Shown one piece after another: positions 430 through 37,900 of a DNA stretch of 40,180 nt. The notes under the pieces are model-generated. The model was given only the letters and a program-made list of their open reading frames with translations. It was not told the origin of the DNA and did no database searches. The position numbers and the translations under genes were made by a program. Every line of letters starts with the position of its first letter. Within the stretch, counting starts at the first letter, position 1. This DNA is from a virus: positions 1 through 40,180 of IMG/VR virus record IMGVR_UViG_3300028786_000016; one strand, written 5' to 3'.

Positions 430-1809
430 TTAGCCCGCGACCCGAACCGCAGCCGTGCGGTACAGACCCGCATAGCCATACAGAACGTCACATCGGGTAG
501 GCATTGCGTCGTTGTTCACCGTGTACTGGGTGACCATGCGCATGCTCATGCCGATGTCCGAATCGTTCGCCCGTGCGGCCTCTTCCACGCCACGCGGCAG
601 CGGAAGATCCGCGAACGCGAGTGCGAAGGCCGTCTTGTGCATGGCGATGCCCTGCGGAGATACGACGCTCTGGCTGCTCGCCACACCCGTATTCAGGCCG
701 CCGTTGACCGTGATCGCTGAGTTGGAAGCAAACGCCGACGTCGTCACCGCGTTCTGGAACTGACCACCGGTGATCACGCACTCGCCGATGAGGATCGACA
801 GCGCACCCGCACCGGAGCCCGCCGTGTACTCGCCAGTCGTGGCATTGAAGGTGCCGCTGGTGAGCGAGCCGGAGGCGAACGCAGGGCCCGGAGTTGCCGC
901 GCCAGCAGGGTTCTGCGTATAGCCGAACGGCGGGAGTACCACGAACTGCTTGAGCGCGTTGCCATACTGCGTGCGGCTCTGCGGATTCGCAGGGAAGACA
1001 CCCGCAATCTGGATCACGTCGCCGACCTTCAATACCGCGGTCGAGGCGGTCCAGTTGGTCGTCTGGATGAAGCCCGACTGTGCCCAGCCAGTGGTGAGGA
1101 ACGCACCGGCGGTATTTGCCGTCAGCACGGCCGCAGTCGTCTGGGTGGTTGCAACGCCAGACGTATACGAGACCACGTTCTGGTCCTTGTACCAGTCGAA
1201 GTTCGCGAAGTTTTTCGCGATCATGTTGCGCTTGATCATCTCGCCGATCTGCGCCTGGGGATTGAAGAGACCCTTCACCCCATCGACCGCCGTCGCCATC
1301 ATCTGCGGCGAGAGAATCATGCAGCGATCCTCTTCCGGGATCGCTTCATCGGACAGCCGCGCATCTGCCAGGGCGAACGTGAGGTAGTTCGACGGATACG
1401 TACCGAGGGTGCCGATCTGGTTCGCCGTGTTCTGGTAGGCGAAGTACAGGCCATCACTGTCGATACGGTTGGCGACAGTCGCCATCATCGGCTTCAGTAC
1501 ACGCGTACGGAACAGGTCCATCGACAGCAGGAGATCTGCGGTCGTGAACTGCACGTCCACGTGAAACTGATTGTTCAGCGAGACGGGAACGTACGTCTCG
1601 TTCGTGTCTTCGACATTCAGCGCGGGGCCGAACGTGCCGAGGTAACGCGGCGGACGCCGCACGTTGCAGGTCGCACCGATCTTCGCGCCCTTAATGGCGA
1701 ACTCGTCAGAGTACTGACGATCCACCTTGTCGGCGAAGACCAGCGTGTTTTCGAGGACGATCAGCCCTTCATTGGTGATGTAGCTGATCGTGAGTAGGTT
1801 GTTGCTCAC
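430..1809 (-). CDS. Major coat (capsid) protein, P22 gp5 family
   Basis: 459 aa, GTG start with a GGAG ribosome site. It forms the T=7 shell of P22-like heads. Family features are an N-terminal arm with DKVDRQYSDEFAIKGAKIGA, the conserved VRRPPRY segment, and the stretch LNNQFHVDVQFTTADLLLSM. A variable Ala/Thr/Gly-rich middle (about 215-370) corresponds to the inserted I-domain plus extra decoration, and the C-terminus contains MVTQYTVNNDAMPTRCDVLYGY. P22 gp5 is about 430 aa, so the length fits. It follows scaffold and portal, the P22 order. The family call is firm; details of the inserted domain are inferred. Confidence 0.92.
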   Translation of the reverse strand: MSNNLLTISYITNEGLIVLENTLVFADKVDRQYSDEFAIKGAKIGATCNVRRPPRYLGTFGPALNVEDTNETYVPVSLNNQFHVDVQFTTADLLLSMDLFRTRVLKPMMATVANRIDSDGLYFAYQNTANQIGTLGTYPSNYLTFALADARLSDEAIPEEDRCMILSPQMMATAVDGVKGLFNPQAQIGEMIKRNMIAKNFANFDWYKDQNVVSYTSGVATTQTTAAVLTANTAGAFLTTGWAQSGFIQTTNWTASTAVLKVGDVIQIAGVFPANPQSRTQYGNALKQFVVLPPFGYTQNPAGAATPGPAFASGSLTSGTFNATTGEYTAGSGAGALSILIGECVITGGQFQNAVTTSAFASNSAITVNGGLNTGVASSQSVVSPQGIAMHKTAFALAFADLPLPRGVEEAARANDSDIGMSMRMVTQYTVNNDAMPTRCDVLYGYAGLYRTAAVRVAG

Positions 1810-5078: not shown

Positions 5079-5365
5079 GCAAGCTCCCTGAACGCCCGCG
5101 CGAGTTCCAGCATCGTGGACTTCACTCCACGCTGCTTCTCGTCTACGCGCGACAGGCTGTCCATCTGGCTCACACGGATGGTTGCAGCCTCTTCGAGCTG
5201 ACAAGCCGCATCCTCACCCAGCTTCTGCCAGCGCTCGATCTCGGTTGCGGCCGTGATCAACGCAGCCTTCACGTTGAGCGGAGTAGTCTTTGGACAGTTC
5301 TGCTCGAGATCGCGCAGCATGGCTGCAGTGTTGGTGCGCTCAGCAGGAAGGGTGAAGCCGTTCAT
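5075..5365 (-). CDS. Hypothetical protein between terminase and portal
   Basis: 96 aa. The start is placed at the ATG at 5365 because its ATGA overlaps the previous stop. Begins MNGFTLPAERTNTAAMLRDLEQNCP; the rest is helical and rich in Ala, Glu and Arg (AALITAATEIERWQKLGEDA), so probably a small coiled-coil protein. Similar small helical proteins are often encoded between large terminase and portal in phages. I assign no function. Confidence 0.75.
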   Translation of the reverse strand: MNGFTLPAERTNTAAMLRDLEQNCPKTTPLNVKAALITAATEIERWQKLGEDAACQLEEAATIRVSQMDSLSRVDEKQRGVKSTMLELARAFRELA

Positions 5366-5553
5366 GACCCTCCCTGCTTGTCGATGTATTCCGCAAGCGC
5401 GGATGCAACGAGTGCAGTCGTCGCGACCGTGCGCACACGCGGACCACACAGCCGCGTCACGAGGTCAAACACTGACTCGGTGATGTCGCCATCCGGTACA
5501 GGCTGAGCAACGATGCGCAGCAGTTCCTGCTTCAGTGACTGAATGTCGCTCAT
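5362..5553 (-). CDS. Hypothetical 63-aa protein downstream of large terminase
   Basis: 63 aa from an ATG at 5553. Both ends are fixed by 4-base ATGA overlaps: with the large terminase stop upstream and the next gene downstream. Begins MSDIQSLKQELLRIVAQPVP; predicted mostly helical, no Cys, no membrane segment. Family not recognised. Position suggests packaging or head assembly, but this is inference. Confidence 0.75.
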   Translation of the reverse strand: MSDIQSLKQELLRIVAQPVPDGDITESVFDLVTRLCGPRVRTVATTALVASALAEYIDKQGGS

Positions 5554-6989
5554 GACATCCAGCTTGCGCGACCGTTGCGCTGTGCAGTGGTGGGAGCGGG
5601 CTTGTTCTGCATGGCCGCGATGCGCTTCATCATCATCGCGTAGCGTGTGGCGCTGATGAGGTCGTCGCCCTCCTTCACGATCAGCCCGTCGCGACGGTGG
5701 TAGAGATTGAACTCTTCGAACCACTGATTTAGGTGAGAGAACACCTTAAGGCGACCGGTCTGCATGCGGTCGAACATCTCGGCGATACCTGCCTCCACGC
5801 CGAACGAGCCATCCTCGAAAGTGGCACGCTGGACATGCATCTTCAGGCCCTGCGCGCGGTACTGGGCGGCGAGCTGTTCGCCCGAACCCTTGTCGTGTTG
5901 GAGGCCATCGTGAGGCCATGCCCATGGCAACCACTCGCCCCATGGACGTACCGCGGCAGCAAACATCGCAGGTGTCTGCTCGCGAGCCCGATGGCATGCG
6001 ATGACATACAGACAATCAGCATCGCGATCCCAAGCCAGCCGTACTCCCGCAGAGGGATGGTCCCAGCCAAAGTCGATGCCTCCCAACTGCACCCAGTGCT
6101 GGGGGATCGGGAAGGCCTTGACCTTGATGTCGTCTTCATCGATGGGAAACACACGGCCACTCCCCAACTGCGGAATGCCCTTGGTACGAGCATCACGCTC
6201 GAAGGCGGGATACGTTGCAATGATTGCAGCGCGCTGCTCTGCCGAGTAATGCGCAGCGTCCTCAAGCGTCATCTGCGTGACGTGCGTGCCAGGAACCTTG
6301 TCGATGATGAAACGCTTCACAACGCCTGTGATGCCCTTGAGCGGTGTGAACGTGATGAGGTTTGGCATCAGGCCCACATTCGTACGAGTCAGGCCCTCGC
6401 TGTAGATATCCTCTGGCGGCTCTTCGTCGTACCAGACACCACCCAGCGTCTCGCCCTGCCACTTCTCGCGGCCCTGGTCGTATGATTTGAATGCGAGCGA
6501 GCTTTCGCTCGCCTGAATATCCCCGCCGCCACCGAAGCGCGCGATGATGCTGTCCACCGCGCCCACAACACCACGGCGCATGGCAGGCTCACCCTTGAGC
6601 GCATCGTGCGGGATCATCCCCGTCCCCCATGCGCCGATGCGGCCCAGCAGGATGCGCTGGGGATTGTCCCGAGTAGATTCGCTTGTAACACCGCCGCACC
6701 ACCACGCAGGAGCGGACCGGAATACGTAACCGTCCCACCAGTCGGGATAGCGACCCGTGAGGTGCATCGCGACTTCAGCTCCGGCGCTGAGTGTCTTCCC
6801 AACCTGGTTCGCAGCCATGAGGAGCCGCTCACGATGTGAGAGACCAGCCGCATGAAACTCGCGCTGCTTGGGGTATGGAACATAGCTAGTTAACTTCCGA
6901 CGGGCTGCGCGGAGCTGGATCTCCTGCTCGAATGCCTGCAGTACCAAGCGAGGATCGGAGTTGTTCAGCAATGGCGCTAAGTTCGTCAT
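5550..6989 (-). CDS. Large terminase subunit, P22 gp2 family
   Basis: 479 aa (P22 gp2 is 499). ATPase and headful nuclease that pumps DNA into the procapsid. The N-terminus has the adenine-binding-type PYPKQREFHAAG (39-50). The Walker A variant MAANQVGKT lies at 58-66, Walker B GGVWYDEE ends with the acidic pair at 189-190, and a coupling motif TFTPLKG is at 213-219. The nuclease domain begins at GGIDFGWDHP (Asp306) and includes WPHDG and a late DLISATRY acidic motif. The start at 6989 overlaps the small terminase by 104 bases; it is favoured because residues before PYPKQREF match the P22 protein in length. Confidence 0.95.
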   Translation of the reverse strand: MTNLAPLLNNSDPRLVLQAFEQEIQLRAARRKLTSYVPYPKQREFHAAGLSHRERLLMAANQVGKTLSAGAEVAMHLTGRYPDWWDGYVFRSAPAWWCGGVTSESTRDNPQRILLGRIGAWGTGMIPHDALKGEPAMRRGVVGAVDSIIARFGGGGDIQASESSLAFKSYDQGREKWQGETLGGVWYDEEPPEDIYSEGLTRTNVGLMPNLITFTPLKGITGVVKRFIIDKVPGTHVTQMTLEDAAHYSAEQRAAIIATYPAFERDARTKGIPQLGSGRVFPIDEDDIKVKAFPIPQHWVQLGGIDFGWDHPSAGVRLAWDRDADCLYVIACHRAREQTPAMFAAAVRPWGEWLPWAWPHDGLQHDKGSGEQLAAQYRAQGLKMHVQRATFEDGSFGVEAGIAEMFDRMQTGRLKVFSHLNQWFEEFNLYHRRDGLIVKEGDDLISATRYAMMMKRIAAMQNKPAPTTAQRNGRASWMS

Positions 6990-18740: not shown

Positions 18741-19388
18741 GTGGAATTTCAAGAGTTCGAAAAGATCGCGCGCCTTAATCGCGAAGTGATCGTGACCGAG
18801 AAAATCGACGGCACCAACGGACAGGTGCACATCCGTCCGGCGGAAGGCTCCGAGCTGGAGATGGGCTACGACACGCAAGTCAGCATCGACGGCGTGGCGC
18901 ACTACCTCCGCGCCGGCTCGCGCAGTCGCTGGGTGCTGCATCTTGGCAGCGATGACAACCACGGCTTCGGCCGCTGGGTCCACGCGAACGCTCACGAACT
19001 GGCCGGGCTTGGCGCTGGTGCTCACTTCGGTGAGTGGTGGGGCTCAGGTATTCAGCGCAAATACGGGCTCGCTGAGAAGCGCTGGAGCCTGTTCAACGTC
19101 GGCCGCTGGCTGCGCGATCCTGGCGAAATGCTACGCGAGCCCATCCCTGAGGGCGACAAGCGTGCTTACGCGCCTGCGTGCTGTCATGTCGTGCCGATCC
19201 TCGCTCAAGGCGTCGGCATGCATGCGACCGTCGAGGAAGCGCTCGACCGCCTGCGCATGAACGGAAGTGAAGCGGCGCCCGGCTTCTCAAAGCCCGAAGG
19301 CATCGTCGCTTTCCATACGGCCGCGCGCCAGCTGTTCAAGGTGACGCTGGAGCGTGACGAAGAGCACAAGTCGCAGCGGGCCGCCTGA
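18741..19388 (+). CDS. RNA ligase, Rnl2/RNA_ligase family
   Basis: 215 aa, GTG start. Nucleotidyltransferase motifs are in order: motif I TEKIDGTNGQ (Lys21 would be adenylated), motif IIIa-like AHFGEWWGSG (Glu98), motif IV KPEGIV (Glu186), motif V LFKVTLE (Lys200). It is shorter than T4 Rnl2 (334 aa) and lacks its C-terminal domain, as do many phage homologues. It joins RNA ends using ATP and could repair tRNAs cut by anticodon nucleases. No kinase/phosphatase gene is seen in the window, so partner enzymes may be host-supplied. Starts 1 base after the previous gene. Confidence 0.9.
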   Translation: MEFQEFEKIARLNREVIVTEKIDGTNGQVHIRPAEGSELEMGYDTQVSIDGVAHYLRAGSRSRWVLHLGSDDNHGFGRWVHANAHELAGLGAGAHFGEWWGSGIQRKYGLAEKRWSLFNVGRWLRDPGEMLREPIPEGDKRAYAPACCHVVPILAQGVGMHATVEEALDRLRMNGSEAAPGFSKPEGIVAFHTAARQLFKVTLERDEEHKSQRAA

Positions 19389-21074: not shown

Positions 21075-21452
21075 ATGGCCGAAGTCCCCTTCAGCGCGCT
21101 CGCGAAACTGGCCGACACCAAGAAGGTGAAAGCGGTGGCGATGTGGTGCGCTCGAAATCGAATCCTGACCTTCAGGGATTCGAAGGGACGGCCGTGCACT
21201 ACGGAGACCGCGCTTGACCGCGCCCTCTTCCGCGGCAAGGATGAAGAAAACGAGCCGAACTACGAGCCGCCGCCATGTCGCAACTCTCCTGCGGACTCTC
21301 GATCCCTGCCGTCACCGAAAAAGACGGGCGCTACTACAAGATCATCCGCAACAAGTGGCACCCGCTCAGTCGGATCGATGAAGGGGTCAACGCGCTTTAT
21401 CGCGCGCTCTACGAGCTCGACCCCACCCGCCCCGGAACGATCGGGGAGCTGA
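21075..21452 (+). CDS. Excisionase-position protein (possible DUF4224-like), long overlap with integrase
   Basis: 125 aa from ATG 21075. The N-terminal 65 residues (EVPFSALAKLADTKKVKAVA, WCARNRILTFRDSKGRPC, TETALDRALFRGKDEENEPNY) form the small module normally found just before phage integrases, where a short protein ends near PNYEPP and the integrase starts. Here the frame runs on 178 bases over the integrase gene; the extra part (SRSLPSPKKTGATTRSSATS) is low-complexity and probably not conserved. Function inferred: excisionase or directionality factor. Confidence 0.6.
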   Translation: MAEVPFSALAKLADTKKVKAVAMWCARNRILTFRDSKGRPCTTETALDRALFRGKDEENEPNYEPPPCRNSPADSRSLPSPKKTGATTRSSATSGTRSVGSMKGSTRFIARSTSSTPPAPERSGS

Positions 21453-22195
21453 TCAACGTGTACCGCGCCGCCGGAATGGACGAGCTTGCCGAGGCCACCC
21501 GTAAGGACTACGGGAAGATGCTGCCGCGGCTCGATCACCACTTTGGGCACATTCGCCTGGGCGCGCTGAAGTCGTCGCAGATTGCCGTGTGGCTGGAGAC
21601 GCGCCGGAAGGCCGGCAAGGGCGCGATTCGCGCGAACCGTGAGTTCGCCGTACTGGCGAGCCTCCACAAGTTCGGCATGCGCCAGGGCTGGGTCGAGGCG
21701 AACCCCTGCCGCGGCGTTCCCCGGAACAAGGAGCGACCGCGCAGCCGGGCCGTGACCGACGCCGAGTTCTTAGAGGGCTTCGAGCGCGCCCCGCAGGCGT
21801 TTCAAGACCTGATCGCCGCAGCCTACCTATCGGGCGTCCGGCAGACCGATATCATCGCCTGGAGCCGCTCCGCGCACCTGCGGCCCGATGGCATCCATTA
21901 CGTGCAGAGCAAGACCAAGAAGCCGCACGTGGTCGAATGGACGGACGCCCTGCGCTACTTCGTCCGCCGGGCGATGGCGCGCTTCCCCGACGAAGATCGC
22001 GTCTTCCTGAACACCCGCGGCCAGCCGTGGACCATCTGGGCGATCAACAGCCAGAAGCGCCGGCTCGAGCTGGATTGGTGCTTCAAGGATCTGCGGGCCA
22101 AGGCGCAGACCGACTCGCCCCATTCGGTGCTTGGCCACGGTGCCGCGCTTGAAGCGGTGTACCGAAAGCAGCTTCGCACGAGGCCCGTGCGATGA
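21275..22195 (+). CDS. Tyrosine site-specific integrase 1
   Basis: 306 aa. N-terminal arm-binding segment (RYYKIIRNKWHPLSRI), core-binding helices (IGELINVYRAAGMDE; RKDYGKMLPRLDHHFG) and a catalytic domain: Arg189 (YLSGVRQTDI), beta-hairpin Lys around 213-216 (SKTKKPH), KDLR with Lys271 in place of His and Arg274, His288 (VLGHG) and nucleophile Tyr296 (EAVYRK). The H-to-K change at the first box position is tolerated in the family. The gene ends 39 bases before the tRNA-like attP core and points at it, the usual int-attP arrangement. Confidence 0.93.
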   Translation: MSQLSCGLSIPAVTEKDGRYYKIIRNKWHPLSRIDEGVNALYRALYELDPTRPGTIGELINVYRAAGMDELAEATRKDYGKMLPRLDHHFGHIRLGALKSSQIAVWLETRRKAGKGAIRANREFAVLASLHKFGMRQGWVEANPCRGVPRNKERPRSRAVTDAEFLEGFERAPQAFQDLIAAAYLSGVRQTDIIAWSRSAHLRPDGIHYVQSKTKKPHVVEWTDALRYFVRRAMARFPDEDRVFLNTRGQPWTIWAINSQKRRLELDWCFKDLRAKAQTDSPHSVLGHGAALEAVYRKQLRTRPVR

Positions 22196-22198
22196 ATA

Positions 22199-22385
22199 TT
22201 CTTAGAGGCTGCGACGGCAGTCTTAGAGGGAAAATGGTGGGGTGGCCGGGATTCGAACCCGGGACCAGCGGATTAAAAGTCCCTCGCGAATGTGCTGTTT
22301 CTCTCGGTAATTACAGCATTTCGTCTCTAAGACTGTCGGCCGAAAGTATCGCGAATTCGTCGGCATTTGGATGTGCTCTTAGAGA
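22199..22385. repeat. Arm-site-like repeats flanking the attP core
   Basis: The 10-base motif NTCTTAGAGR occurs at 22199-22208, 22220-22229 and 22376-22385 in direct orientation and at 22324-22333 inverted, two on the left and two on the right of the tRNA-like core. The second and third copies extend to a longer near-inverted match (GCAGTCTTAGAGGGAAAAT against ACAGTCTTAGAGACGAAAT). This layout fits integrase arm-type binding sites. A further copy lies inside int1 (21767). Confidence 0.65.
22235..22279 (-). other. Putative attP core: 3' portion of tRNA-Lys(TTT)
   Basis: On the minus strand this reads the anticodon loop CTTTTAA (anticodon TTT), part of the anticodon 3' stem (TCC), variable loop, a perfect 5-bp T-arm around TTCGAAT, acceptor 3' strand CCACCCC, discriminator A and encoded CCA. 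The 5' half of a tRNA is absent, so it is not functional by itself. Phages carry such 3' tRNA copies so that integration rebuilds the host gene. Phage genes lie on both sides, so this looks like attP and not attL or attR. Confidence 0.85.
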
Positions 22386-22453
22386 CATCCAGTGGTGTCC
22401 AACTACTGAGGCTTGGCTAGACACCGGCCGCGCGATGCATAGTATTGGGAACC

Positions 22454-23284
22454 GTGGAAACCACCTCTGCGGTCACTGTCTCCGCGATCCTCGACAGATA
22501 TCAGGCCAACTGCCTGCGGCTTCTCTCCCCTCGTACTGCTCGCGACTACGTCCGGCACATCGGACACCTGAAAGCGCGCTTCGGCGACCGGATCGCGTCC
22601 GAGCTCAAGCCGAAGGACTTCGGTCCGTTCATTCAGGAACGATCGGGGCGCAAGGGCGAAGTGCAGCGGGTGCGGCAGCTTGCTGTGCTGTCCGCTGCAT
22701 TCACGCAGGCTGTATCGTTTTGGTACATCCTCGATTCAAATATTTTGCGCGATGTAAAAAGGCCGAAGCGGCCCCCACGCGATCGACTTATCGAAGCTCA
22801 CGAGTTCGAAGCCGTGCGCTCAGGTGCACCGCCACGTGTGCAACTCATGATGGATCTGGCCCTGCGACTTGGCCAGCGCCAGGGCGATCTGCTTGCCCTG
22901 AAGTGGGCGGACCTGAAAGACGGCCACGTCAATCTCCAGCAGGGGAAGACGGGCAAGCGTCTTGCCATCGAGATCACGCCGGACCTGAAACGGATCTTCG
23001 GGAAGTGCTGGCTGCTACCGAACCGCGGCGAGTACCTGATCACTCGTTCCTGTGGCGGGAGGTATACGAGCGAAGGCTATCGCGCGTTATGGCAAAGGGT
23101 GATGAATGCGTACTGCAAACGTGGCGGAACGCGGTTCACTTTTCACGACATACGCGCGCTGTGTGCAACAAAGTGTTCATCGCCGGAAATCGCGATGAAG
23201 CTCCTGGGCCACACGAATATCGGAATGACTTTGCGCGTATATCGAAGGGGCGTCGAGCGAGTGAAGGCGCTGGAAGTCGCCTAG
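22454..23284 (+). CDS. Tyrosine site-specific recombinase 2
   Basis: 276 aa from GTG 22454 (TTG 22445 is an alternative; GGGA lies only 3 bases before the GTG). Core-binding domain: SAILDRYQANCLRLLSPRTA, DYVRHIGHLKARFGDR. Catalytic residues: Arg142 (LGQRQGDLLALKW), Lys165 (GKTGKRL), His231/Arg234 (FTFHDIRALCATK), His253 (LLGHT), Tyr263 (RVYRR). It lacks the N-terminal arm-binding domain of integrase 1. It is complete, unrelated in detail to int1, and starts 175 bases beyond the attP core. Role: second integrase, dimer resolution or alternate site; undecided. Confidence 0.92.
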   Translation: METTSAVTVSAILDRYQANCLRLLSPRTARDYVRHIGHLKARFGDRIASELKPKDFGPFIQERSGRKGEVQRVRQLAVLSAAFTQAVSFWYILDSNILRDVKRPKRPPRDRLIEAHEFEAVRSGAPPRVQLMMDLALRLGQRQGDLLALKWADLKDGHVNLQQGKTGKRLAIEITPDLKRIFGKCWLLPNRGEYLITRSCGGRYTSEGYRALWQRVMNAYCKRGGTRFTFHDIRALCATKCSSPEIAMKLLGHTNIGMTLRVYRRGVERVKALEVA

Positions 23285-23429: not shown

Positions 23430-23461
23430 TCACCTGACAGCCGAAAAATTCTGTCAGGTGA
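23430..23461. promoter_or_regulatory. Perfect 11-bp inverted repeat upstream of the second small-gene run
   Basis: TCACCTGACAG and CTGTCAGGTGA are exact inverted copies separated by an A/T-rich 10-base spacer (CCGAAAAATT). It lies 38 bases before the GTG at 23499, in the 214-base gap after recombinase 2 (23285-23498), which otherwise holds only the hairpin at 23297-23316 and no gene. Half-site CTGACAG resembles the TTRTCAG half-sites of the immunity region. Could be an operator or a strong transcript hairpin. Confidence 0.55.
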
Positions 23462-23498: not shown

Positions 23499-23729
23499 GT
23501 GACTAACTTTTCCTTTCCGACACTGCCGGAAGCTCCATGGGAGCTGAAGAACCCTGACAAAGAAGTCATGGTCATGCAGGTGATTCGCACGACCAATGCG
23601 ACGCGCGGGGATGGCAAGGTCACACCAATCCGTCGCATTACTCAATTCTGGAGCATGGACGGCGAATTGCTCGCCGAGAAAGATCCGTGCGCTCATCACG
23701 CCGCACAAGCCATGCAGGAGACACCATGA
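23499..23729 (+). CDS. Hypothetical 76-aa protein
   Basis: 76 aa from GTG 23499 with GGAG 11 bases upstream. MTNFSFPTLPEAPWELKNPD, VMQVIRTTNATRGDGKVTP, RRITQFWSMDGELLAEKDPC: a beta-rich small protein. First gene of the run beyond recombinase 2. Overlaps the next gene as ATGA. Not recognised. Confidence 0.65.
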   Translation: MTNFSFPTLPEAPWELKNPDKEVMVMQVIRTTNATRGDGKVTPIRRITQFWSMDGELLAEKDPCAHHAAQAMQETP

Positions 23730-23941
23730 TCGACTTCGCGAAGGTGAAGGAAGGCGACAAGCTGAAGATCGTCGGCGCCGGTGCGCCTGGCTTCGCCAAA
23801 CTTGGTGAAGTCGTCACGGTCACAAGCTGCAACGAGCGCAACCGGTGCGACGTGGTGAACGAGGCCGGTGAGTCTGCGTACTTCGCTCTCACGTGCGGCG
23901 CTGCCCGACTGGAACCGGTAACCGTGGAAGCAAAGCCGTGA
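23726..23941 (+). CDS. Hypothetical 71-aa beta-rich protein
   Basis: 71 aa, ATG 23726 overlapping the previous stop. FAKVKEGDKLKIVGAGAPGF, KLGEVVTVTSCNERNRCDVV, ARLEPVT: a KOW/SH3-like barrel pattern (V..GD.l.iv......lG.vv.V). Two Cys may pair. Function unknown; barrel fold is a guess from the pattern. Confidence 0.65.
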   Translation: MIDFAKVKEGDKLKIVGAGAPGFAKLGEVVTVTSCNERNRCDVVNEAGESAYFALTCGAARLEPVTVEAKP

Positions 23942-24126
23942 ATGAGCTTGAACGGGCCGTCCTCGCTGCCGCCGAAGAGCGCTTCGTCGCGTACATGGCC
24001 GAGCGCCACTACAAGAGCGAAGACCACGTCCTGAAAGCGATGAGCAGGCAGGAAACGCCAGCTAACAAGCTGATACGCGCGGTGGCTGAGTGGCGGAAGG
24101 CCAAAACACAGGAAGCAAAGTCATGA
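23938..24126 (+). CDS. Hypothetical helical protein
   Basis: 62 aa from GTG 23938 (GTGA overlap). ELERAVLAAAEERFVAYMAE, then charged helix LIRAVAEWRKAKTQEAKS. Probably a small helical bundle. Coupled on both sides. Not recognised. Confidence 0.6.
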   Translation: MNELERAVLAAAEERFVAYMAERHYKSEDHVLKAMSRQETPANKLIRAVAEWRKAKTQEAKS

Positions 24127-24437
24127 ACGCCAGTAAGGCGATCCCGAACAGCGCGCAGACTCAGTGGGTCGAGATGGCTGCGAGCAAGAAGCGTAAAATC
24201 CCTCGCATAACGCCACGAGGCGAGCTGGACCGGCTTATTGACTGGTACGAGCGGGAGAAGCCCGATATGCCAAGGGTGATGCCTGGCGGGGTCGCGCTAC
24301 CCGCAGACCAGATCAACAGGTTCGCAAGCAAAGTCGAGGAAGGTGTTTGGCAGTATCGCGGCTGGCGCATCACGCAGGCGGACGCGTTGCCGAAAAAAGA
24401 GAAGCGGATGAAGATCGCCAAGAAGAAGCGCTTTTAA
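24123..24437 (+). CDS. Hypothetical 104-aa basic protein
   Basis: 104 aa from ATG 24123 (ATGA overlap). KKRKIPRITPRGELDRLIDW, YEREKPDMPRVMPGG, KVEEGVWQYRGWRITQADAL and a Lys-rich end (KEKRMKIAKKKRF). Strongly basic ends suggest nucleic-acid contact. Next gene starts 15 bases later. Not recognised. Confidence 0.6.
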   Translation: MNASKAIPNSAQTQWVEMAASKKRKIPRITPRGELDRLIDWYEREKPDMPRVMPGGVALPADQINRFASKVEEGVWQYRGWRITQADALPKKEKRMKIAKKKRF

Positions 24438-24452
24438 CTCATCGGGACAGCC

Positions 24453-24620
24453 ATGACAGCGAAGATCCCACCCAACGCTCAGCGCCTCGGCGAATCCCTG
24501 CTCGCGCTCATGGAGTCGAAGCCCGTGACGATGGGCGAGCTGGACGGCATGATCGAATGGGCGCGGATGCTTCATCTTGCACTGCAAGAGCTTCGAGCGA
24601 AGAGGACCTTTTCCCCATGA
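24453..24620 (+). CDS. Hypothetical 55-aa helical protein
   Basis: ATG 24453, preceded by a short gap with GGGACAG. MTAKIPPNAQRLGESLLALM, GELDGMIEWARMLHLALQEL: two amphipathic helices with a turn, possibly a dimerising helical hairpin. Stop overlaps the next ATG (ATGA). Confidence 0.6.
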   Translation: MTAKIPPNAQRLGESLLALMESKPVTMGELDGMIEWARMLHLALQELRAKRTFSP

Positions 24621-25186
24621 CAAATGATGTAGCGGCATGGCTTCGCGATCCGTACTGCTGCTGCGGTCGTAGCGAATGCGTCGCGGCTGCGGCGAAAGGC
24701 GCGGCCGAGATTGAGAGATTAGAGGCCCTCCTGGTGAAACAGTCCGAACCGTCCGGAAAGTTCAGCCAGGAAATGCTTACATCGATCGACAGCGATCCGC
24801 CGATCGTTGGATGGGTCGATGCCGCTCGCGTGGCTGAGTGGGCGCATCGAGTCGCGGGGCTGGAGAGCAGGCAGACCGAACCGCCAGCGGAGGCTGTATC
24901 GCTCGATGAGCGGCGGCATGAAGTGCCGCAACTTATCGCATGGATCGAGGCGGAATGCGAAAAGCTCGACAGTCCCGGGCCTGACGAGTACGAGGCCGGG
25001 CAATCATTTGCCTATCGCGCGGTACTCGCCCGGTTGCGCACTGCCGAGCAGAACGAAGTGAAGCCCTGTACATGCCCTCCAGACGACAACCCGCCGCAGC
25101 CATGCCCTCGCAAGTACGCGCTGTCTGAGTGCCGAAGGGCGGCCGATGGCTACTGCGCACCATGCCACGAAGCGGCTTATCCGTGA
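24617..25186 (+). CDS. Hypothetical 189-aa protein with Cys clusters at both ends
   Basis: 189 aa from ATG 24617. N-terminal DPYCCCGRSECVAAAAKGAA (four Cys), a Glu/Ala-rich helical middle (VAEWAHRVAGLESRQTEPPA; LIAWIEAECEKLD), and a C-terminal Cys-rich end (CTCPPDDNPPQPCPRKYALS, ECRRAADGYCAPCHEAAYP) that could bind one or two zinc ions. Looks composite. Unknown. Confidence 0.6.
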   Translation: MTNDVAAWLRDPYCCCGRSECVAAAAKGAAEIERLEALLVKQSEPSGKFSQEMLTSIDSDPPIVGWVDAARVAEWAHRVAGLESRQTEPPAEAVSLDERRHEVPQLIAWIEAECEKLDSPGPDEYEAGQSFAYRAVLARLRTAEQNEVKPCTCPPDDNPPQPCPRKYALSECRRAADGYCAPCHEAAYP

Positions 25187-25201
25187 ACCGGGGAGCGGAA
25201 C

Positions 25202-25477
25202 ATGGCGGCTAGCGCTGCGGATATAATCGCGTGGTTCGGCGCAGGAGTGAAGGATCGCTGCACGCACCTCATCGTGGTCTGCGACACCTTCGATCACGAC
25301 GACTACCCGGTTTTCGTTCACAAGAACGATGACTTCTACGCCATCTATGACCGCTACAGCGGCGGTCAAAATATGCAACGGGTGATGGAAGTCTACGATC
25401 TCAGCCGGCCGTGGTCGACGCAGGCGAAGGGTCGCATAATGAATCTGCCACCGCGACCTGCAGAGAGAACCGCATGA
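25202..25477 (+). CDS. Hypothetical 91-aa protein
   Basis: 91 aa, ATG with GGGGAG 6 bases upstream. IIAWFGAGVKDRCTHLIVVC, DTFDHDDYPVFVHKNDDFYA, YDRYSGGQNMQRVMEVYDLS. The segment HLIVVCDTFDHDDYPVFV is seen in a small family of phage proteins (CDTFDxxDYPVFV). Compact alpha/beta protein; function unknown. Confidence 0.65.
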   Translation: MAASAADIIAWFGAGVKDRCTHLIVVCDTFDHDDYPVFVHKNDDFYAIYDRYSGGQNMQRVMEVYDLSRPWSTQAKGRIMNLPPRPAERTA

Positions 25478-25668
25478 AAGCCTACGATCCTGTTTTCGAT
25501 CAGACGAAGCGTCCGAAGCCGGATCACGAATGCGTGTTCGTGCAGACCGCCAATCGTTTCATAGAGGCTTGCACCGTGCCCGGTTGCACCGAGGGCCGTA
25601 TGTCCCGGCAGTGGATCGAGCGCATGCAGTCTTCTCAGCGTCGATCTGCAACTCAGGAAACAAAATGA
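25474..25668 (+). CDS. Hypothetical 64-aa protein
   Basis: 64 aa, ATG 25474 overlapping the previous stop. KAYDPVFDQTKRPKPDHECV, TANRFIEACTVPGCTEGRM, then a polar tail rich in Arg, Ser and Gln. CTVPGC may be part of a zinc site with the earlier Cys/His. Overlaps the next gene as ATGA. Confidence 0.6.
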   Translation: MKAYDPVFDQTKRPKPDHECVFVQTANRFIEACTVPGCTEGRMSRQWIERMQSSQRRSATQETK

Positions 25669-25889
25669 ATACGAACGAATTGAAGCTCAAGCTCATGGAC
25701 ATCGCGGGTGCAGGATGGGCTGTGACCCTCACGCTTGCCGACAAGCAGGCAGAAATAAACGCCTCACGAAACGTAGGCCAATCCTACGTCTATATTAGCC
25801 GCAGGGTTCCGGACGATGGGTATGAGATCGACGCGATGGTCGCGGAGCTGACCGCCCTCTGTGGCCACGTTGACCTGCTCGGAAAGTGA
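25665..25889 (+). CDS. Hypothetical 74-aa protein
   Basis: 74 aa from ATG 25665. MNTNELKLKLMDIAGAGWAV, TLTLADKQAEINASRNVGQS, YVYISRRVPDDGYEIDAMVA. Alpha/beta, soluble, no motif recognised. Its stop begins the conserved leader found before the next gene. Confidence 0.65.
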   Translation: MNTNELKLKLMDIAGAGWAVTLTLADKQAEINASRNVGQSYVYISRRVPDDGYEIDAMVAELTALCGHVDLLGK

Positions 25890-25914
25890 GCTACTTCTAG
25901 CTGAGGACCAAAGC

Positions 25915-26088
25915 ATGAAAATCGAATCTCCACCCCTTCACGACACCATCCGGATCATCCCTGCGTTAAACCAGGACCCGGATCACAACAGCCGTGAACT
26001 CGCTGCGTGCCATTCAATGGCTGCAGAAATGGGCGGCAAAGTATCTCTGCCACCCGGCGAGTGGCCGATGAGTCCCGTGACGATATGA
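25915..26088 (+). CDS. Hypothetical 57-aa protein
   Basis: 57 aa from ATG 25915, with GAGGA 7 bases upstream inside a leader that matches 19773-19804. MKIESPPLHDTIRIIPALNQ, then SRELAACHSMAAEMGGKVSL and PPGEWPMSPVTI. Overlaps the next gene as ATGA. Not recognised. Confidence 0.55.
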   Translation: MKIESPPLHDTIRIIPALNQDPDHNSRELAACHSMAAEMGGKVSLPPGEWPMSPVTI

Positions 26089-26273
26089 CTTGGCAATCCG
26101 AAGCCGCGCAGCTGCCGCCACCGTCCAAGGACGAAATGGCCCAGTGGGCTGATGGGGTCGTGTATCACACAGCCACCGATGGCACACTGCTTTACTACCA
26201 CCCGACTCGGCGCGCATGGCTTCCCTCCCCTCGCCCAACCAAATCGACGACCACCGACAGCACCTCGAACTGA
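26085..26273 (+). CDS. Hypothetical 62-aa protein
   Basis: 62 aa from ATG 26085. SEAAQLPPPSKDEMAQWADG, VVYHTATDGTLLYYHPTRRA, then a polar Thr/Ser-rich tail. Small, probably partly disordered. Overlaps the next ORF by 58 bases, so either this tail or the next start may be imperfect. Confidence 0.55.
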   Translation: MTWQSEAAQLPPPSKDEMAQWADGVVYHTATDGTLLYYHPTRRAWLPSPRPTKSTTTDSTSN

Positions 26274-26413
26274 TGCAGCGAGCGGAGGCCGCTGCGAAAC
26301 GCGGGCATGAGCTGATGAAGAAAGGCGATCGGACCGGTGCCCATGCGGCGCTGGATGAGGCGGACGAACTCGTGGAGCGCGCCGATCTACTTGCGGAGCG
26401 GTGGAAGCGGTGA
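26216..26413 (+). CDS. Hypothetical helical 65-aa protein at the operon end
   Basis: 65 aa from ATG 26216. Two long helices (HRQHLELMQRAEAAAKRGHE, AHAALDEADELVERADLLAE), TPR-like in spacing (AxxAxxxGDxxxAxxALxEAxxL). Last gene of the rightward run; its 3' end overlaps the convergent acyltransferase by 27 bases. The real start may be a later Met (at 26273). Confidence 0.5.
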   Translation: MASLPSPNQIDDHRQHLELMQRAEAAAKRGHELMKKGDRTGAHAALDEADELVERADLLAERWKR

Positions 26414-27397
26414 AGACGCCAGCACGGGCGCGTTTCCCACAAGCCACCGTCTCACTGGCCGCTCGTAGTACCTGAACGAGAGCCACGCTGCGGCGCTTGA
26501 GACCATGAGTGTCAGCGCAATGTGAGTCGGCAGAGAAAGCCGCAGGTAGTGCCCGCTGGCGACCCATATGATGGGATGCAGCAGGTAGAGACCATAGCTG
26601 ATGTCGCCGAAAAACTGGCTGACCACGCTTGCGAGCTTCGATGTGGGTGTCCAGAAGAAATTGGCGACGATGAGCACTGCCAGAATCGACAAGGCGGCTC
26701 CGCGAGCTCCGCTGACGACGGCCTCGAAGCTCGAACCCGGGAATGCGAACAGCACGGCAGTAGCTAGGATTCCGAACGGCAGCAGCCATCGTATCCGCAT
26801 GACAGGCATCGCCTTGGCGATCACCATGCCGCCAAAGAAGAAGAATAGAAAGGACGCTGGCTGGATGTAGGCACCCCACGCGTCATCGAAGCTTGAATGC
26901 TCCAGAAGGTGATTCACAAAGGTGAGCCGCAGCACGAGGAAGGCAAGCAGTGCACCGATCATCAACCGGGGCGTGCGGGTAAACGCGAGCATCACGGGGA
27001 ACAGTGCATAGAGCACGAACTCGATGCCGATGCTCCAGCCGCCCACGAGGTAGGACGTGAGCCCCGGCGCGCTGAAGCCCTGCAGCAAGGAGATGTTCAG
27101 CAGATACCGTGCTGGATCCCACGTGTTCCGCAGGATAGCAGGCAAGAGGATGCAGGCCCACACGAGCGGCGCCAGGCGCGCGAAACGCTTCCAGAGAAAG
27201 CGTGGTGCCTCATCCAGCGTGAGCGCGTGGTAGTTGTGGTACAGCACCGCGCCCGAGATGCCGAAGAAGACATAGACGCCGTACAAGCCCCAGGTTGGGA
27301 ACGTGGCTGTCCCCGAAAGCAGCAGGCAGTGGTAGACCGCCACCAGCACCGCGCACAGGCCTCGCAGTAGCTCGAGACCCAGTATTCTCTTGGGCAT
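26387..27397 (-). CDS. Membrane acyltransferase 3 (O-antigen/surface sugar acetylase)
   Basis: 336 aa. An integral membrane enzyme that O-acetylates surface polysaccharide; phage versions alter the lysogen's receptor and serotype. Begins LGLELLRGLCAVLVAVYHC, the signature R...A...V...H, followed by about ten hydrophobic helices (YGVYVFFGISGAVLYH, LVWACILLPAILRN, YGLYLLHPIIWVASG). FFGDISYGLYLLHP is the typical late motif. It is on the opposite strand to the genes at its 3' end, between the rightward run and the lysis genes, as moron genes often are. The convergent gene overlaps its end. Confidence 0.88.
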   Translation of the reverse strand: MPKRILGLELLRGLCAVLVAVYHCLLLSGTATFPTWGLYGVYVFFGISGAVLYHNYHALTLDEAPRFLWKRFARLAPLVWACILLPAILRNTWDPARYLLNISLLQGFSAPGLTSYLVGGWSIGIEFVLYALFPVMLAFTRTPRLMIGALLAFLVLRLTFVNHLLEHSSFDDAWGAYIQPASFLFFFFGGMVIAKAMPVMRIRWLLPFGILATAVLFAFPGSSFEAVVSGARGAALSILAVLIVANFFWTPTSKLASVVSQFFGDISYGLYLLHPIIWVASGHYLRLSLPTHIALTLMVSSAAAWLSFRYYERPVRRWLVGNAPVLASSPLPPLRK

Positions 27398-28231: not shown

Positions 28232-29833
28232 TCAATTGGGCACATCAGCGGTGGTCCGCGATACCTCAATCCAGTTCACTCCGTCATAGCGGAATTGAAT
28301 TGAGCGGCTATTGCCGTTTGCCGGCTGTGTCCAGGCGGCAAGTTTGTAGATCGCGTTCCAAGTCACGGCCCCAAGTGCGCCACCGGAAGCATTTCGGATC
28401 GTCAGCCGAAGCAGGAATCCATCGTCCTGAGTAACCCCGGTTGGCGCATTGATCGCGAAGGCGGTTCCGTTAGTGCAGTTGATCGACTGCTCATTACCGT
28501 CAGCAAGAGCAGGCGTGATGCTGGTGCTATAGGCAGGCGCGCCCAGAAGGCCGCGGATTGGCGCAGAAAAACGATTCTGCCATTGCCCTCCACCCGTCAC
28601 CCCGCAGGCAACGAAGCTGTAGAGATTGGTGTTGTCAGAAACGTTGAACTCAGTATCGGTTCTCAATCCGAAGAAGGACGCGTTTTTCTGGCCGCCGCCG
28701 CCAGAGGTGATATCCACGAAATTCGCTTCAAACCGCGAGCCGTGCATCGAGAACCCCAGCGCGCCAGCCGCAGGAACAACTGCGACACGGAGATGCTCGA
28801 AATTTCCGCCAACAAATACCGAGCCATCCGCTTGCCCCAAAGCAATCTCAATGCCATGGGACTGACCGTAGGTGGAGTCGTCTCCAAATGCCGTGCAGTT
28901 CGTGAAAAGCGTATCTGTGGCGGAGATCGCTGCGGTTAGGAAGCTGTATCCCACTCGGATATGGACTGCGTCCACATCGCCGATATGGTTGTGGAACGTG
29001 CTCAGTGAGCCTGCATCGATGCCTACCGCGATATTCGTGCGAGTTGTAACAGTTGCGGTGTAGCCCTCAATGTAAAGCCGTTCTGCAGCTGCTCCGATCG
29101 TTTCCCGGAGCTTGACGCCGTTGCCGTCCTTGTTTTCCAGAACGATGGCGAGATCTGAGATGCCTGTGCCGTGCTCCGTTGCTCCACCCCTGCCGAGCTG
29201 AAAAGCCCAGGAAGCCCCCGCATAGTGCAACTCGGTCGCACGCTTCCCAGAGCCCATGATGCGGACGTACTGCGGGACCGTGATCTCATTGATGTTGAAC
29301 AGGCCCGGGGGCAGCAACACCGTGCCACTACGAATCAACCCTACAAGCGGAAGTCCCGCCATAGCGGAGTTGATTGCTGTCGTGTTGGCCGCTGCGGATG
29401 CTGAGGCGGCAAATCCGTAGCGCTCGGCTTCCATCGTTGGATCTGCCCTGAAACCGTAATTGGTTGGAACAACCAACCCAGTGATTTCAGGCTGTGTGCG
29501 CGGGAACAGGATCTGCCCAATGATCTGTCGTGTGAGGCTCGCATAGGTCACTGCCGCCGAAATGTTGTCGACGGTCCAGATTGGTTTCGTCGGCGGATCG
29601 GTATCGCCCTCTGGGGAGAGAACGAACTTATAGGTGAGCGTCTGGTCAAGCCAGAGGTTCGCTTCACCCCTGAAGTTCAGGACGATCGGGTTCGTATTCG
29701 GTGTACCGCTTTCATCCGCATAGGTTGCGAGCTTCGTGCTTGTCCCCGCTGCATAGGTGAACAGCAAGCCGCCCGTCAGTGGTCGGCCGTTGTTGTCGAA
29801 AAATTTCTGTATTGGCAGTGGGGATAGATTCAT
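28232..29833 (-). CDS. Tailspike-like protein with beta-helix domain
   Basis: 533 aa, ATG overlapping the previous stop (ATGA). N-terminal 95 residues (KFFDNNGRPLTGGLLFTYAA ... DTDPPTKPIWTVDNIS) are the head/tail-attachment module also found in the gene upstream. Residues about 115-150 form a linker (TEPEITG-type region), then a pectate-lyase-type beta-helix starts: VLLPPGLFNINEITVPQYV, IMGSGKRATELHYAG, DLAIVLENKDGNGVK. A final beta domain ends IQFRYDGVNWIEVSRT. Expected to bind and possibly cut host O-antigen; substrate not deducible. Confidence 0.85.
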   Translation of the reverse strand: MNLSPLPIQKFFDNNGRPLTGGLLFTYAAGTSTKLATYADESGTPNTNPIVLNFRGEANLWLDQTLTYKFVLSPEGDTDPPTKPIWTVDNISAAVTYASLTRQIIGQILFPRTQPEITGLVVPTNYGFRADPTMEAERYGFAASASAAANTTAINSAMAGLPLVGLIRSGTVLLPPGLFNINEITVPQYVRIMGSGKRATELHYAGASWAFQLGRGGATEHGTGISDLAIVLENKDGNGVKLRETIGAAAERLYIEGYTATVTTRTNIAVGIDAGSLSTFHNHIGDVDAVHIRVGYSFLTAAISATDTLFTNCTAFGDDSTYGQSHGIEIALGQADGSVFVGGNFEHLRVAVVPAAGALGFSMHGSRFEANFVDITSGGGGQKNASFFGLRTDTEFNVSDNTNLYSFVACGVTGGGQWQNRFSAPIRGLLGAPAYSTSITPALADGNEQSINCTNGTAFAINAPTGVTQDDGFLLRLTIRNASGGALGAVTWNAIYKLAAWTQPANGNSRSIQFRYDGVNWIEVSRTTADVPN

Positions 29834-30765
29834 TTTAGTGAATACGCCCCGGACCAGCCTGTTGGGAGGCCCTTACTACCACTGGTTGTGAAACCGGTTC
29901 CCGATGGCGGAGCAGTGCCCTTGTTGAACTGCATGGTGCCGAGGGCGCCGAAACCGAATGAGCCCGCTGCATATGCTCCGTTGTCGATGAGAATCGTAGA
30001 CGATGTACCGATCAGGTCTTTTGTTACGGGGCGCAGATTGGTTGGCAGATTGCCAATGGTGAGGAGGTTCGCGTTACTCACGCCCTGTGTTCCAAGCCAT
30101 TTGAGTGATGCCTGGCCTCCCACGATCTGCCATGCCATATCCCCTGTTGGAGGCGTTACTCCATAGCCGCCCCAAGCGGGGGTGAATGTTCCGCTTGAGA
30201 CGCCTCCTGTCAGCAACTGAAATACACCGCCCACATAGATCACCGTCGTGACCTGATTGGCCTGCAATTGATTGGCGGTGAGAGGGGATCCGTCCTGATT
30301 CACGATCGAGACAGGCCCCAGACCATTTACGTTGAGCGTACTGGGCCCAGTGTTGTCGGTGCTTGGGAGCCAGTAGATAACAATGCCATCGGTGTACGCG
30401 CTGAAGTTTGCCGTGAAGGTCAGCACATAAGCATCAGCCACGCCGGTATCAACACCGCCATAGAGCGTGACAAGCTGGCTTGAGACAACGTCATCGACCG
30501 ACCAAATAGGGTTCGTCGGCGGATCGGTATCTGTCGAAGGCGCCAGAACGTATTTGTAGGCCACGTTCGGCGGAATCCACAGGCTGCACTCGCCCCTGAA
30601 GTCGAGGGCCACCGGGTTCGAATTGGTGCTGCTGGAAGGCCCCGTATATGTCGCCAGCTTCGTGCTTGTGCCTGCTTCGTAGGTGAACAGCTTGCCGTTG
30701 ACGAGCGGACGCCCGTTATTGTCAAAAAACTGCTGTTTTACGGTGGGAGATAGGACGTTCGTCAT
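29830..30765 (-). CDS. Tail fibre/collar-type protein sharing the tailspike N-terminus
   Basis: 311 aa, ATG at 30765. The first ~95 residues (QFFDNNGRPLVNGKLFTYEA ... DTDPPTNPIWSVDDVVS) parallel the downstream tailspike, then a beta-rich part: VLTFTANFSAYTDGIVIYWL, STLNVNGLGPVSIVNQDG, VTTVIYVGGVFQLL, and a C-terminal Gly/Ser-rich domain ending FTTSGSKGLPTGWSGAYSLK. Resembles fibre tips or adaptor proteins. Attached to the tail through the shared module by inference. Confidence 0.8.
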   Translation of the reverse strand: MTNVLSPTVKQQFFDNNGRPLVNGKLFTYEAGTSTKLATYTGPSSSTNSNPVALDFRGECSLWIPPNVAYKYVLAPSTDTDPPTNPIWSVDDVVSSQLVTLYGGVDTGVADAYVLTFTANFSAYTDGIVIYWLPSTDNTGPSTLNVNGLGPVSIVNQDGSPLTANQLQANQVTTVIYVGGVFQLLTGGVSSGTFTPAWGGYGVTPPTGDMAWQIVGGQASLKWLGTQGVSNANLLTIGNLPTNLRPVTKDLIGTSSTILIDNGAYAAGSFGFGALGTMQFNKGTAPPSGTGFTTSGSKGLPTGWSGAYSLK

Positions 30766-36009: not shown

Positions 36010-36350
36010 GACGGCACGAATGTCACGTCTGGAAGGCCCGAATACGTGATCCGCAGAACGTCCGAAGCGTTGACCGCGAACATCCCAGAGGTTGCCCCAA
36101 CGTCGTAATAGTCCGTTCCATTACGGCTAAATTCTATCTTCGAGACCGTGCCATCTGAAACAATCACCGAGCCCTTGCGGGGAGCGCTATAGGTAGCTGG
36201 TGATGCTCCGAGCATGACCGCCGATTCATTCTCTGGCGGTAACCCGCGGTACAGGCCCGTGAAGAAGAAATACCAGTCGCGTGTCGTATTGCCGTTGACT
36301 TCGAGAGGCACCTGATAGGTTGGAACAAGGTTGAACTGCGACTGAGGCAT
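36006..36350 (-). CDS. Hypothetical structural protein next to gp10 homologue
   Basis: 114 aa, ATG overlapping the gp10-like stop (TGATG). Begins MPQSQFNLVPTYQVPLEVNG, then beta-rich (TRDWYFFFTGLYRGLPPENE; KIEFSRNGTDYYDVGATSGM; DVLRITYSGLPDVTFVPS). No homologue in P22 at this position known to me. Probably a minor tail or capsid part. Confidence 0.7.
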   Translation of the reverse strand: MPQSQFNLVPTYQVPLEVNGNTTRDWYFFFTGLYRGLPPENESAVMLGASPATYSAPRKGSVIVSDGTVSKIEFSRNGTDYYDVGATSGMFAVNASDVLRITYSGLPDVTFVPS

Positions 36351-37900
36351 CAGGCCGCTTCCTGTTCCGGCTGAGCGAACAATGTCGCGCCCACCACGTC
36401 CCTGGAAACCGGATCGGTGAAGCGAGCCTCAGCCACAAAATCGCGTGATACGCCGATCCTGCGGCGCATAGCGCGGTTTTTGTACTCCCCCGCCTTGCCG
36501 ATGGGCAGAAAGAACTCCGTGCCAAAGTTGGCGCCCCCGTCGCGCGAGAATCGCACCATCACCTGAGGGTCCGAGCCCTGCCCTACCTGCAATCCGACTC
36601 CCGGCGAAAACTCGATCTGAAGCGATGCGAAGAACATCCGCTTGCGGTTCTCGCGGCTCCAGACATGCGGGCAGCGACGCAGGGCAACAAGCGGTGTATC
36701 GCCATCCACATAGAACTGCCGACTCATCTGATAGCCGGTCTGAGACTGGAAATCTCCCACCATGCGGATGTTCTGATAGTTCGCGAAGCAGTTGGATTTG
36801 TCCCGATGGAGAACTCCCGTATCGGGATTGAACGAGGCGCGCTCATGCCATTGGGGAGTTCCCGCTGCTTCACTTGCAGTCTGGTCGTAGACCCACGTCT
36901 TGTCCGCGGTCGGGAAAGTCAGCACGTAGAAGAGATGACCTTCTTCCTCGTAGACGAACCCGATTGCATCGGAAACGAGCGGATAGCTTGTGATTGCCGT
37001 TTCGATCGCGCGCGAGGAAATATCGGCGTAGCTGTATTGCTCTGTCTTGATGACGACGTTCTCGCCGCGCTCGCTTTTTCCAAGCCACACGAGAGAACTT
37101 CCCAGACGGGCAATCGATTGGGCGGCAGAACACCCAATCTGCGGGGCTACGCCGGGAATACGGCTGAAGGCGAAGTTTGCACCGCCTGCGTCGTACCAGA
37201 CCTCTGATGTACGCTCGCCGACCAACCACAACTCGCGGTTGTTCTCCATGAGCGTGATCAGGTTGTCGCTCGAAGAGTCTTTCAGAGCGAAGAAAGCGCC
37301 CGGAAACGTCACGGTGTAGGGCGTTGGGCCCGTGGTGTAAAATGTCTGGGTGCCGGGGCGATTGAAGATCAGCCAGCCATCGATGAAAGCCACCCGATCA
37401 GCGCCGAGGAATCCGGGGTCGGTAATCTGCGCCAAGGTTTTGGCTGCGATGTTGTAGAGATAGCCGTTTGTGCCATCCACGATCACCGCATACCCGCCTG
37501 GCCCATTGTCACGGATGCATACGGGGCCTGAGTTGGTCAGCAGGTTGCCAATGAAGAACTTGTTGAACTGCGCGATACTCGTTTGAGTTGCGGGCACGCT
37601 CATCTGCGTCAGGATCACAGCCTGACCCACAATCCATAGCGCATCCGTTCCGCCAGGAAGCACCCAGATTCCTCGCACGCCACCTGTATCTGGGATGGCG
37701 ATGTCATCTGTCGTGATGCTGAAGTCGAGAATCCCGTTCTTGCCAGGCGCCCCAAGCAACGCCACGGGCGTCTTGCTTTTGCTGTCCTGTGAGTACTCGC
37801 AGTACCAGTTAACCGCCCGCTGGCGGTCCTGATAGGGATCAGGGGCCGTGTAGGCTTGCCCTACAAACCCAAAATCCCCGCCCTGGAAGTTCAGGCCCAT
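36350..37900 (-). CDS. Tail hub/packaged-DNA stabilisation protein, P22 gp10 family
   Basis: 516 aa (P22 gp10 is 472), ATG overlapping the gp4-like stop. gp10 forms the hexameric hub to which tailspikes attach and seals packaged DNA. Typical wording: YTAPDPYQDRQRAVNWYCEY near the start, GVRGIWVLPGGTDALWIVG, TLMENNRELWLVGERTSEVW, SAAQSIARLGSSLVWLGKSE, WSRENRKRMFFASLQIEFSP. These trypsin-like spaced W/G motifs match the family well. Confidence 0.92.
   Translation of the reverse strand: MGLNFQGGDFGFVGQAYTAPDPYQDRQRAVNWYCEYSQDSKSKTPVALLGAPGKNGILDFSITTDDIAIPDTGGVRGIWVLPGGTDALWIVGQAVILTQMSVPATQTSIAQFNKFFIGNLLTNSGPVCIRDNGPGGYAVIVDGTNGYLYNIAAKTLAQITDPGFLGADRVAFIDGWLIFNRPGTQTFYTTGPTPYTVTFPGAFFALKDSSSDNLITLMENNRELWLVGERTSEVWYDAGGANFAFSRIPGVAPQIGCSAAQSIARLGSSLVWLGKSERGENVVIKTEQYSYADISSRAIETAITSYPLVSDAIGFVYEEEGHLFYVLTFPTADKTWVYDQTASEAAGTPQWHERASFNPDTGVLHRDKSNCFANYQNIRMVGDFQSQTGYQMSRQFYVDGDTPLVALRRCPHVWSRENRKRMFFASLQIEFSPGVGLQVGQGSDPQVMVRFSRDGGANFGTEFFLPIGKAGEYKNRAMRRRIGVSRDFVAEARFTDPVSRDVVGATLFAQPEQEAA

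Follow-up and report, generated by a model that had tools for sequence, protein, structure and literature searches.

The window analysed here, a 40,180-base virus record from IMG/VR, carries two complete tyrosine recombinase genes, int1 and rec2, on either side of a tRNA-derived attP core, in the integration region that closes the plus-strand early genes (Table 1). The late genes (portal, scaffold, coat, terminase and head closure) fit one P22-like operon that wraps round the contig ends, and because this operon is single, the record represents one soil phage with an uninterrupted attP; two adjoining tandem prophages are ruled out. An Erf-like annealing protein and a RecE-like exonuclease are also encoded, and an early-region gene at 18741-19388 is RNA-ligase-like (phrog_548).

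Table 1. Features of the integration region and late genes of the window
Feature	Positions	Strand	Remarks
Small ORF that overlaps the start of int1; candidate recombination directionality factor	21075-21452	+	proposed from position
int1, main tyrosine integrase; arm-binding-type N-terminus, KDLR replacing HxLR	21275-22195	+	open frame, 306 aa; integrase-family matches
Putative arm-type repeat TCTTAGAGG, left 1	22200-22208	+	similar repeats in relatives L003-L006
Putative arm-type repeat TCTTAGAGG, left 2	22221-22229	+	
attP core, tRNA-Lys(UUU) 3' half from anticodon loop to CCA, 45 bp	22235-22279	-	equivalent cores in relatives L003-L006
Putative arm-type repeat TCTTAGAGA, right 1, inverted	22324-22332	-	
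Putative arm-type repeat TCTTAGAGA, right 2	22377-22385	+	
Promoter-like TAGACA-16-TAGTAT	22418-22445	+	one match, chance expectation 0.8; 8 nt separate the -10-like box from the GTG
rec2, tyrosine recombinase of the lambda-Int type without an arm domain, made up of a core-binding and a catalytic domain	22454-23284	+	integrase-family match
Perfect 11-bp inverted repeat with 10-nt spacer, TCACCTGACAG-N10-CTGTCAGGTGA	23430-23461		may be a core site for rec2, an operator or an RNA hairpin (speculative)
Coat	430-1809	-	late gene; scaffold also in late set
Portal	2877-5204	-	late gene
Terminase	5550-6989	-	late gene
Head closure	36350-37900	-	late gene

The initial annotation described two recombinases of different subfamilies flanking a tRNA-Lys attP, with catalytic residues kept in both and an arm-binding (AB) N-terminus only in int1, and this description holds: both frames are open, and the phrog_1 profile is matched by int1 from position 121 and by rec2 only from 159, the N-terminal extension being present in int1 only. 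The int1 catalytic set (R189, K213, K271-R274, H288, Y296) aligns across its relatives, which share 62-94% identity in IMG/VR, and the Lys in its HxxR box, to which the annotation had drawn attention, is a family trait (KDLR in 13/17 int1-type proteins). An interval of 39 bp separates the int1 stop from the attP core, which Rfam recognises as tRNA-like, and a further 174 bp lie between the core and the GTG of rec2; ARAGORN found no complete tRNA in the window, and the host attB counterpart was not found. Four TCTTAGAG(G/A) repeats, two on each side of the core, look like arm-type sites. Cores of tRNA-Lys also lie downstream of int in the relatives read, of the UUU type in G002, G003 and G004 and of the CUU type in G005, and small proteins like the product of the ORF that overlaps the int1 start precede int1 in G003 and G020; searches of Pfam and PHROG with 21075-21326 gave no match. 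As judged from its AB N-terminus, tRNA core and arm-type repeats, int1 is thus an ordinary lambda-Int-like, AB-containing phage integrase. The geometry of the tRNA fragment suggests that the restored tRNA gene would adjoin int1, with rec2 at the far end of the prophage. In G004 the tRNA-Lys core (L005:7046-7090) is inverted relative to int1 when compared with the window, so that the opposite prophage end would adjoin the restored tRNA gene there.

What kind of enzyme is rec2? Its frame is open from 22445 (TTG) or 22454 (GTG) to 23284 and leaves about 8 residues ahead of the core-binding domain, with the N-terminal arm-binding domain absent. A profile built from 13 homologues of rec2 aligns with lambda Int over residues 70-342, that is, the part after the arm domain, and the structure nearest to the AlphaFold model of rec2 (pLDDT 88) is that of lambda Int 75-356 (TM 0.80). 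Lambda Int scores far better than Xer against rec2, and the nearest kin of rec2 are AB-bearing integrases in trees built without Xer sequences. The homologues of rec2 have 0-14 residues ahead of the core-binding domain, apart from G008 with 40, where the ORF start is unsure, and a member of the wider AB-less set, L173, has 19; the AB-bearing sisters have 49-59, and the genomic relatives of rec2 (~30% identity) have at least 48 in 77/80 cases.

The catalytic set of rec2 is complete (R142, K165, H231, R234, H253, Y263). Across the AB-less members, the residues R, K, R, H and Y are invariant (30/30), and the His of the HxxR box is kept in all but one, in which it is replaced by Arg. Values of dN/dS for the family are low, roughly 0.1-0.4, albeit with dS saturated. 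Catalytic conservation and low dN/dS together rule out an inactive pseudogene, and rec2 is most likely, by its sequence, a catalytically competent recombinase. Full catalytic conservation also argues against a recombinase-fold repressor of the MrpR/YopR or SroF kind, to which rec2 has weak structural similarity only. The position of the -10-like box 8 nt ahead of the GTG suggests that the rec2 mRNA is leaderless and expressed independently; by eye, -10-like boxes stand 7-9 nt ahead of the start in many rec2 homologues.

A wider homologue scan splits the family into an AB-less group of 30 different loci, the window among them, and a set of 11 AB-bearing sisters at 33-44% identity. The closest 16 of the AB-less proteins make up a clade with support of 98/98, and the deeper branches are unresolved, so that one or several losses of the AB domain are both possible. 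Members of the clade came exclusively from metagenomic virus contigs; the closest relatives in isolated phages are ~30% identical and those in genome representatives do not exceed 35% across most of their length, and a search for the host through its prophages, in two scans of genome contigs, gave no close rec2.

Within the clade, the phylogeny of rec2 is discordant with the type of partner integrase. For example, the window copy, whose partner is int1, is sister to that of G001, whose partner is lambda-like, and G011 (int1 partner) groups with G012 (lambda-like partner). Between loci with different partners, DNA similarity generally begins between about -45 and +34 relative to the start of rec2 and gives out close to the stop, the exception being the pair L134/L137, where it reaches about 400 bp downstream of rec2; between loci with the same partner, it spans int, attP and rec2. 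Similarity so largely limited to the rec2 gene points to exchange as a single-gene module. The gene is dispensable, being absent from 9/17 int1-type contigs, and G003 has no more than a fragment of it; this sister phage, which has the same backbone and is the only one among the contigs examined to share the window's terminase closely (71%), retains rec2 as a 73-aa C-terminal remnant behind an HNH gene (L004:2421-3407). In other words, rec2 is, to judge from these comparisons, exchanged as one gene, kept in many phages and capable of being lost.

The initial annotation had regarded a phage with two integrases as unusual, and the pair is indeed unusual, but rec2 is not a one-off. Whole-contig searches found a second, AB-bearing tyrosine integrase in 21/30 AB-less contigs compared with 0/11 AB-bearing contigs (Fisher p 5e-5, a significance that is overstated because the sequences are related). 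The partner gene ends immediately upstream of rec2, in the same orientation, in 12 of these 21 (G000, G001, G006, G007, G008, G011, G012, G025, G026, G027, G030, G036), the G025 partner being visible only as a fragment at the edge of the contig; it is found immediately downstream in four (G004, G009, G028, G032) and several kb away in five (G014, G020, G023, G035, G043). These partners belong to diverse subfamilies, including the int1 type (306 aa), lambda-like proteins (371-430 aa), a 345-357-aa type, a 382-aa protein and a 331-337-aa type, among others. A tRNA-type core lies between the partner and rec2 in 9 of the 12 contigs with an upstream partner: Lys-UUU in the window, Lys-CUU in G011 and G027, Val-UAC in G006, G030 and G036, Met-CAU in G007, and Arg-CCU in G025 and G026 (Met, Arg and Lys isoacceptors assigned by eye). 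The remaining 9/30 AB-less contigs have no second tyrosine recombinase; several are short or incomplete, and others are large (G034, 40 kb; G040, G046, G048 and G052, 38-48 kb). Among contigs without a second tyrosine enzyme, a serine recombinase was found in G010 only, elsewhere on the contig.

We favor, with a probability of roughly 0.6, a reading in which int1 is the working integrase and rec2 is an active, arm-independent accessory recombinase exchanged beside attP. Int1 would integrate the phage at a host tRNA-Lys gene, using the standard arm-dependent mechanism of the lambda type. The rec2 clade would have lost, or never had, the arm-binding domain, and rec2 would be a separate accessory gene beside attP, passed between phages independently of the primary integrase and expressed from its own, probably leaderless, promoter. 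As one rec2 lineage pairs with integrases of different tRNA cores, the target of rec2 is probably not the tRNA core but a short core site of its own, on which it would act without arm sites in the manner of arm-less recombinases such as Brujita Int, Rci and Cre. As to the reaction itself, a second, arm-independent integration or excision is our tentative first choice and resolution of phage multimers a weaker candidate; help at the partner's attP seems unlikely, and inversion less likely still.

Such a site was looked for and not found, and this counts against the favored reading, as do the dispensability of rec2, the AB-less contigs with no second tyrosine recombinase, those in which rec2 stands several kb from its partner, and the unresolved deeper branches of the rec2 tree. 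No 10- or 12-mer in the rec2 flanks rose above shuffled sequence; when more loci were added, AGCACA and CATACAG were frequent upstream of rec2, at a level borderline against shuffled maxima. The strongest local candidate, a speculative one, is the palindrome downstream of rec2, which was equalled in length in 2/200 shuffles, has an RNA hairpin z of -4.7, and is not conserved in relatives; it is also the sole site candidate near rec2 for a Cre-like multimer resolvase. Perfect 8-10-bp inverted repeats, candidate operators, RNA hairpins or recombination sites, occur at or just before the rec2 start in L136, L137, L157, L141, L146, L155 and L159. We rejected a start-overlapping hairpin as a conserved rec2 site, as the sequences differ among loci and the window copy has none.

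Could rec2 instead be an alternative integrase with an attB of its own, serving a second integration site or an arm-less, freely reversible integration? We regard this as possible but doubtful. The AB-less contigs that have no other tyrosine recombinase speak for it, as does G034, in which rec2 stands alone beside a complete tRNA-Ile gene; in addition, the AB-bearing sisters are apparently the sole integrases of their phages, and arm-less integrases such as Brujita Int exist, as cited in two papers (PMC8138268, PMC6109161). Against it, the paired phages already have a complete integration module, and the second att site that the initial annotation had suggested looking for near 23284 or 26413 did not materialize: no second tRNA-type fragment was found at either position or near rec2 in the window, and the flanks hold no conserved core-like motif. 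The tRNA gene of G034 is a tRNA-Ile(GAT) gene (L155:3821-3895) directly upstream of the rec2 homologue, which is the sole tyrosine recombinase found in that 40-kb contig.

Somewhat less probable, in our estimation, is that rec2 is a passenger: the slot beside attP, at the prophage end, would be a hotspot where selfish or moron genes insert, and rec2 would be one of several kinds to have settled there at no benefit to the phage. Among int1 relatives, that slot is occupied by an HNH gene in G003, a GIY-YIG-like gene in G005 and an arm-domain-like/HNH-like protein in G002, and G017 has one of the latter between int1 and the core; moreover, rec2 is transferred as a lone gene, and its G003 copy is degraded. 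The refuting condition set by the initial annotation, relatives with rec2 always inactivated or replaced, has a mixed outcome: the G003 remnant and the other genes of G002 and G005 fit it, but rec2 is intact and catalytically conserved in 29 other AB-less loci. A passenger fits poorly with catalytic residues kept across 30 divergent homologues (one His>Arg), with an accompanying integrase that goes with the AB-less and not the AB-bearing forms, and with the five paired contigs in which rec2 lies outside the slot, several kb from attP. As a separate observation, two int1 phages encode related proteins (L003:7114-7647 and L031:5918-6418, 53% identical) beside int1/attP, each with an N-terminus like an integrase arm-binding domain followed by an HNH-like C-terminus; the N-terminal resemblance is 33% identity to the L052 integrase (E 5e-6 for the L031 copy), and the L031 copy has no Pfam match. 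Such proteins are possibly nucleases or regulators aimed at arm sites.

An invertase or shufflon recombinase that switches a surface gene, such as the tail proteins or the acyltransferase at 26387-27397, is improbable. This proposal draws on the arm-less recombinase Rin of bifidobacterial prophages, which occurs in phages that also have a canonical AB-bearing integrase and serves a tail shufflon (PMC6109161), and on the shufflon recombinase Rci of plasmid R64 (IntP2 subgroup), which lost the AB domain within an otherwise AB-bearing group (PMC8138268), as well as on the tail paralogues and O-acyltransferase nearby. Rin, however, to which rec2 is likened here by description, adjoins receptor-binding-protein cassettes with 11-bp rix repeats (PMC6109161), whereas rec2 adjoins attP and not the tail genes, and such repeats were not found; Rci is a plasmid-borne invertase of a subgroup other than that of rec2, and the window has no sfx-like repeats. 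Inverted repeats flanking the tail and acyltransferase genes do not exceed the chance level, no Rin- or Rci-type crossover repeats above chance surround variable gene segments in the window, and the two tail paralogues are in direct orientation. These two tandem genes (28232-30765) have homologous N-termini (a 98-nt repeat at 76%) and a 20-bp exact direct repeat at 29586/30512, and they adjoin an endolysin gene in addition to the O-acyltransferase.

It is a long shot that rec2-type enzymes mediate or mark the swapping of whole int-attP units with different tRNA targets, acting beside their own 5' end, an arrangement that would explain both the related rec2 genes beside unrelated integrases and the break in homology at the rec2 start. 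Least probable of all is the suggestion in the initial annotation that rec2 was captured from a nested element whose remnant (23499-26413) has been absorbed: small uncharacterised genes do follow rec2, but three of them have relatives in the early regions of other phages, not as a block with rec2, the DNA shared around rec2 is essentially that gene alone, and no flanking repeats or second core were found.

How does an active accessory recombinase beside attP compare with known systems? Lambda Int, the best match by structure and profile and alike in its catalytic residues, differs from rec2 in having an arm-binding domain; rec2 is also a second recombinase in its phage, and no att site was found for it. 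Tyrosine recombinases comprise simple and AB-containing groups (PMC8138268). Brujita-type integrases (IntBrujita subgroup, PMC8138268) are phage enzymes that, like rec2, consist of core-binding and catalytic domains only; Brujita Int, however, is a simple recombinase (PMC8138268), whereas rec2 falls among AB-bearing integrases and in most cases is accompanied by a partner, and the rec2 model is distant from the Brujita-type structure 5vfz (TM 0.42). Tyroviruses conserve three tyrosine recombinases whose roles are unresolved (PMC9703825); unlike rec2, these are Xer-like, scattered over 160-170 kb Bacillus phages and not tied to a tRNA attP (PMC9703825). Phages with two recombinases and arm-less enzymes are thus already known, and what is notable about rec2 is its attP-adjacent pairing with diverse integrases. 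This recurrent pairing across integrase types appears to be new among the open-access papers that we covered.

Integrases are a standard marker for classifying temperate phages and for predicting where they insert, a practice that assumes one site-defining integrase per phage. Recurrent arm-less companion recombinases beside unrelated integrases would break this one-phage-one-integrase assumption. They would also explain second integrase genes that annotators have dismissed as duplicates or remnants, and, as a class, would offer a natural system for studying what an integrase is capable of when its arm-binding regulator is missing.
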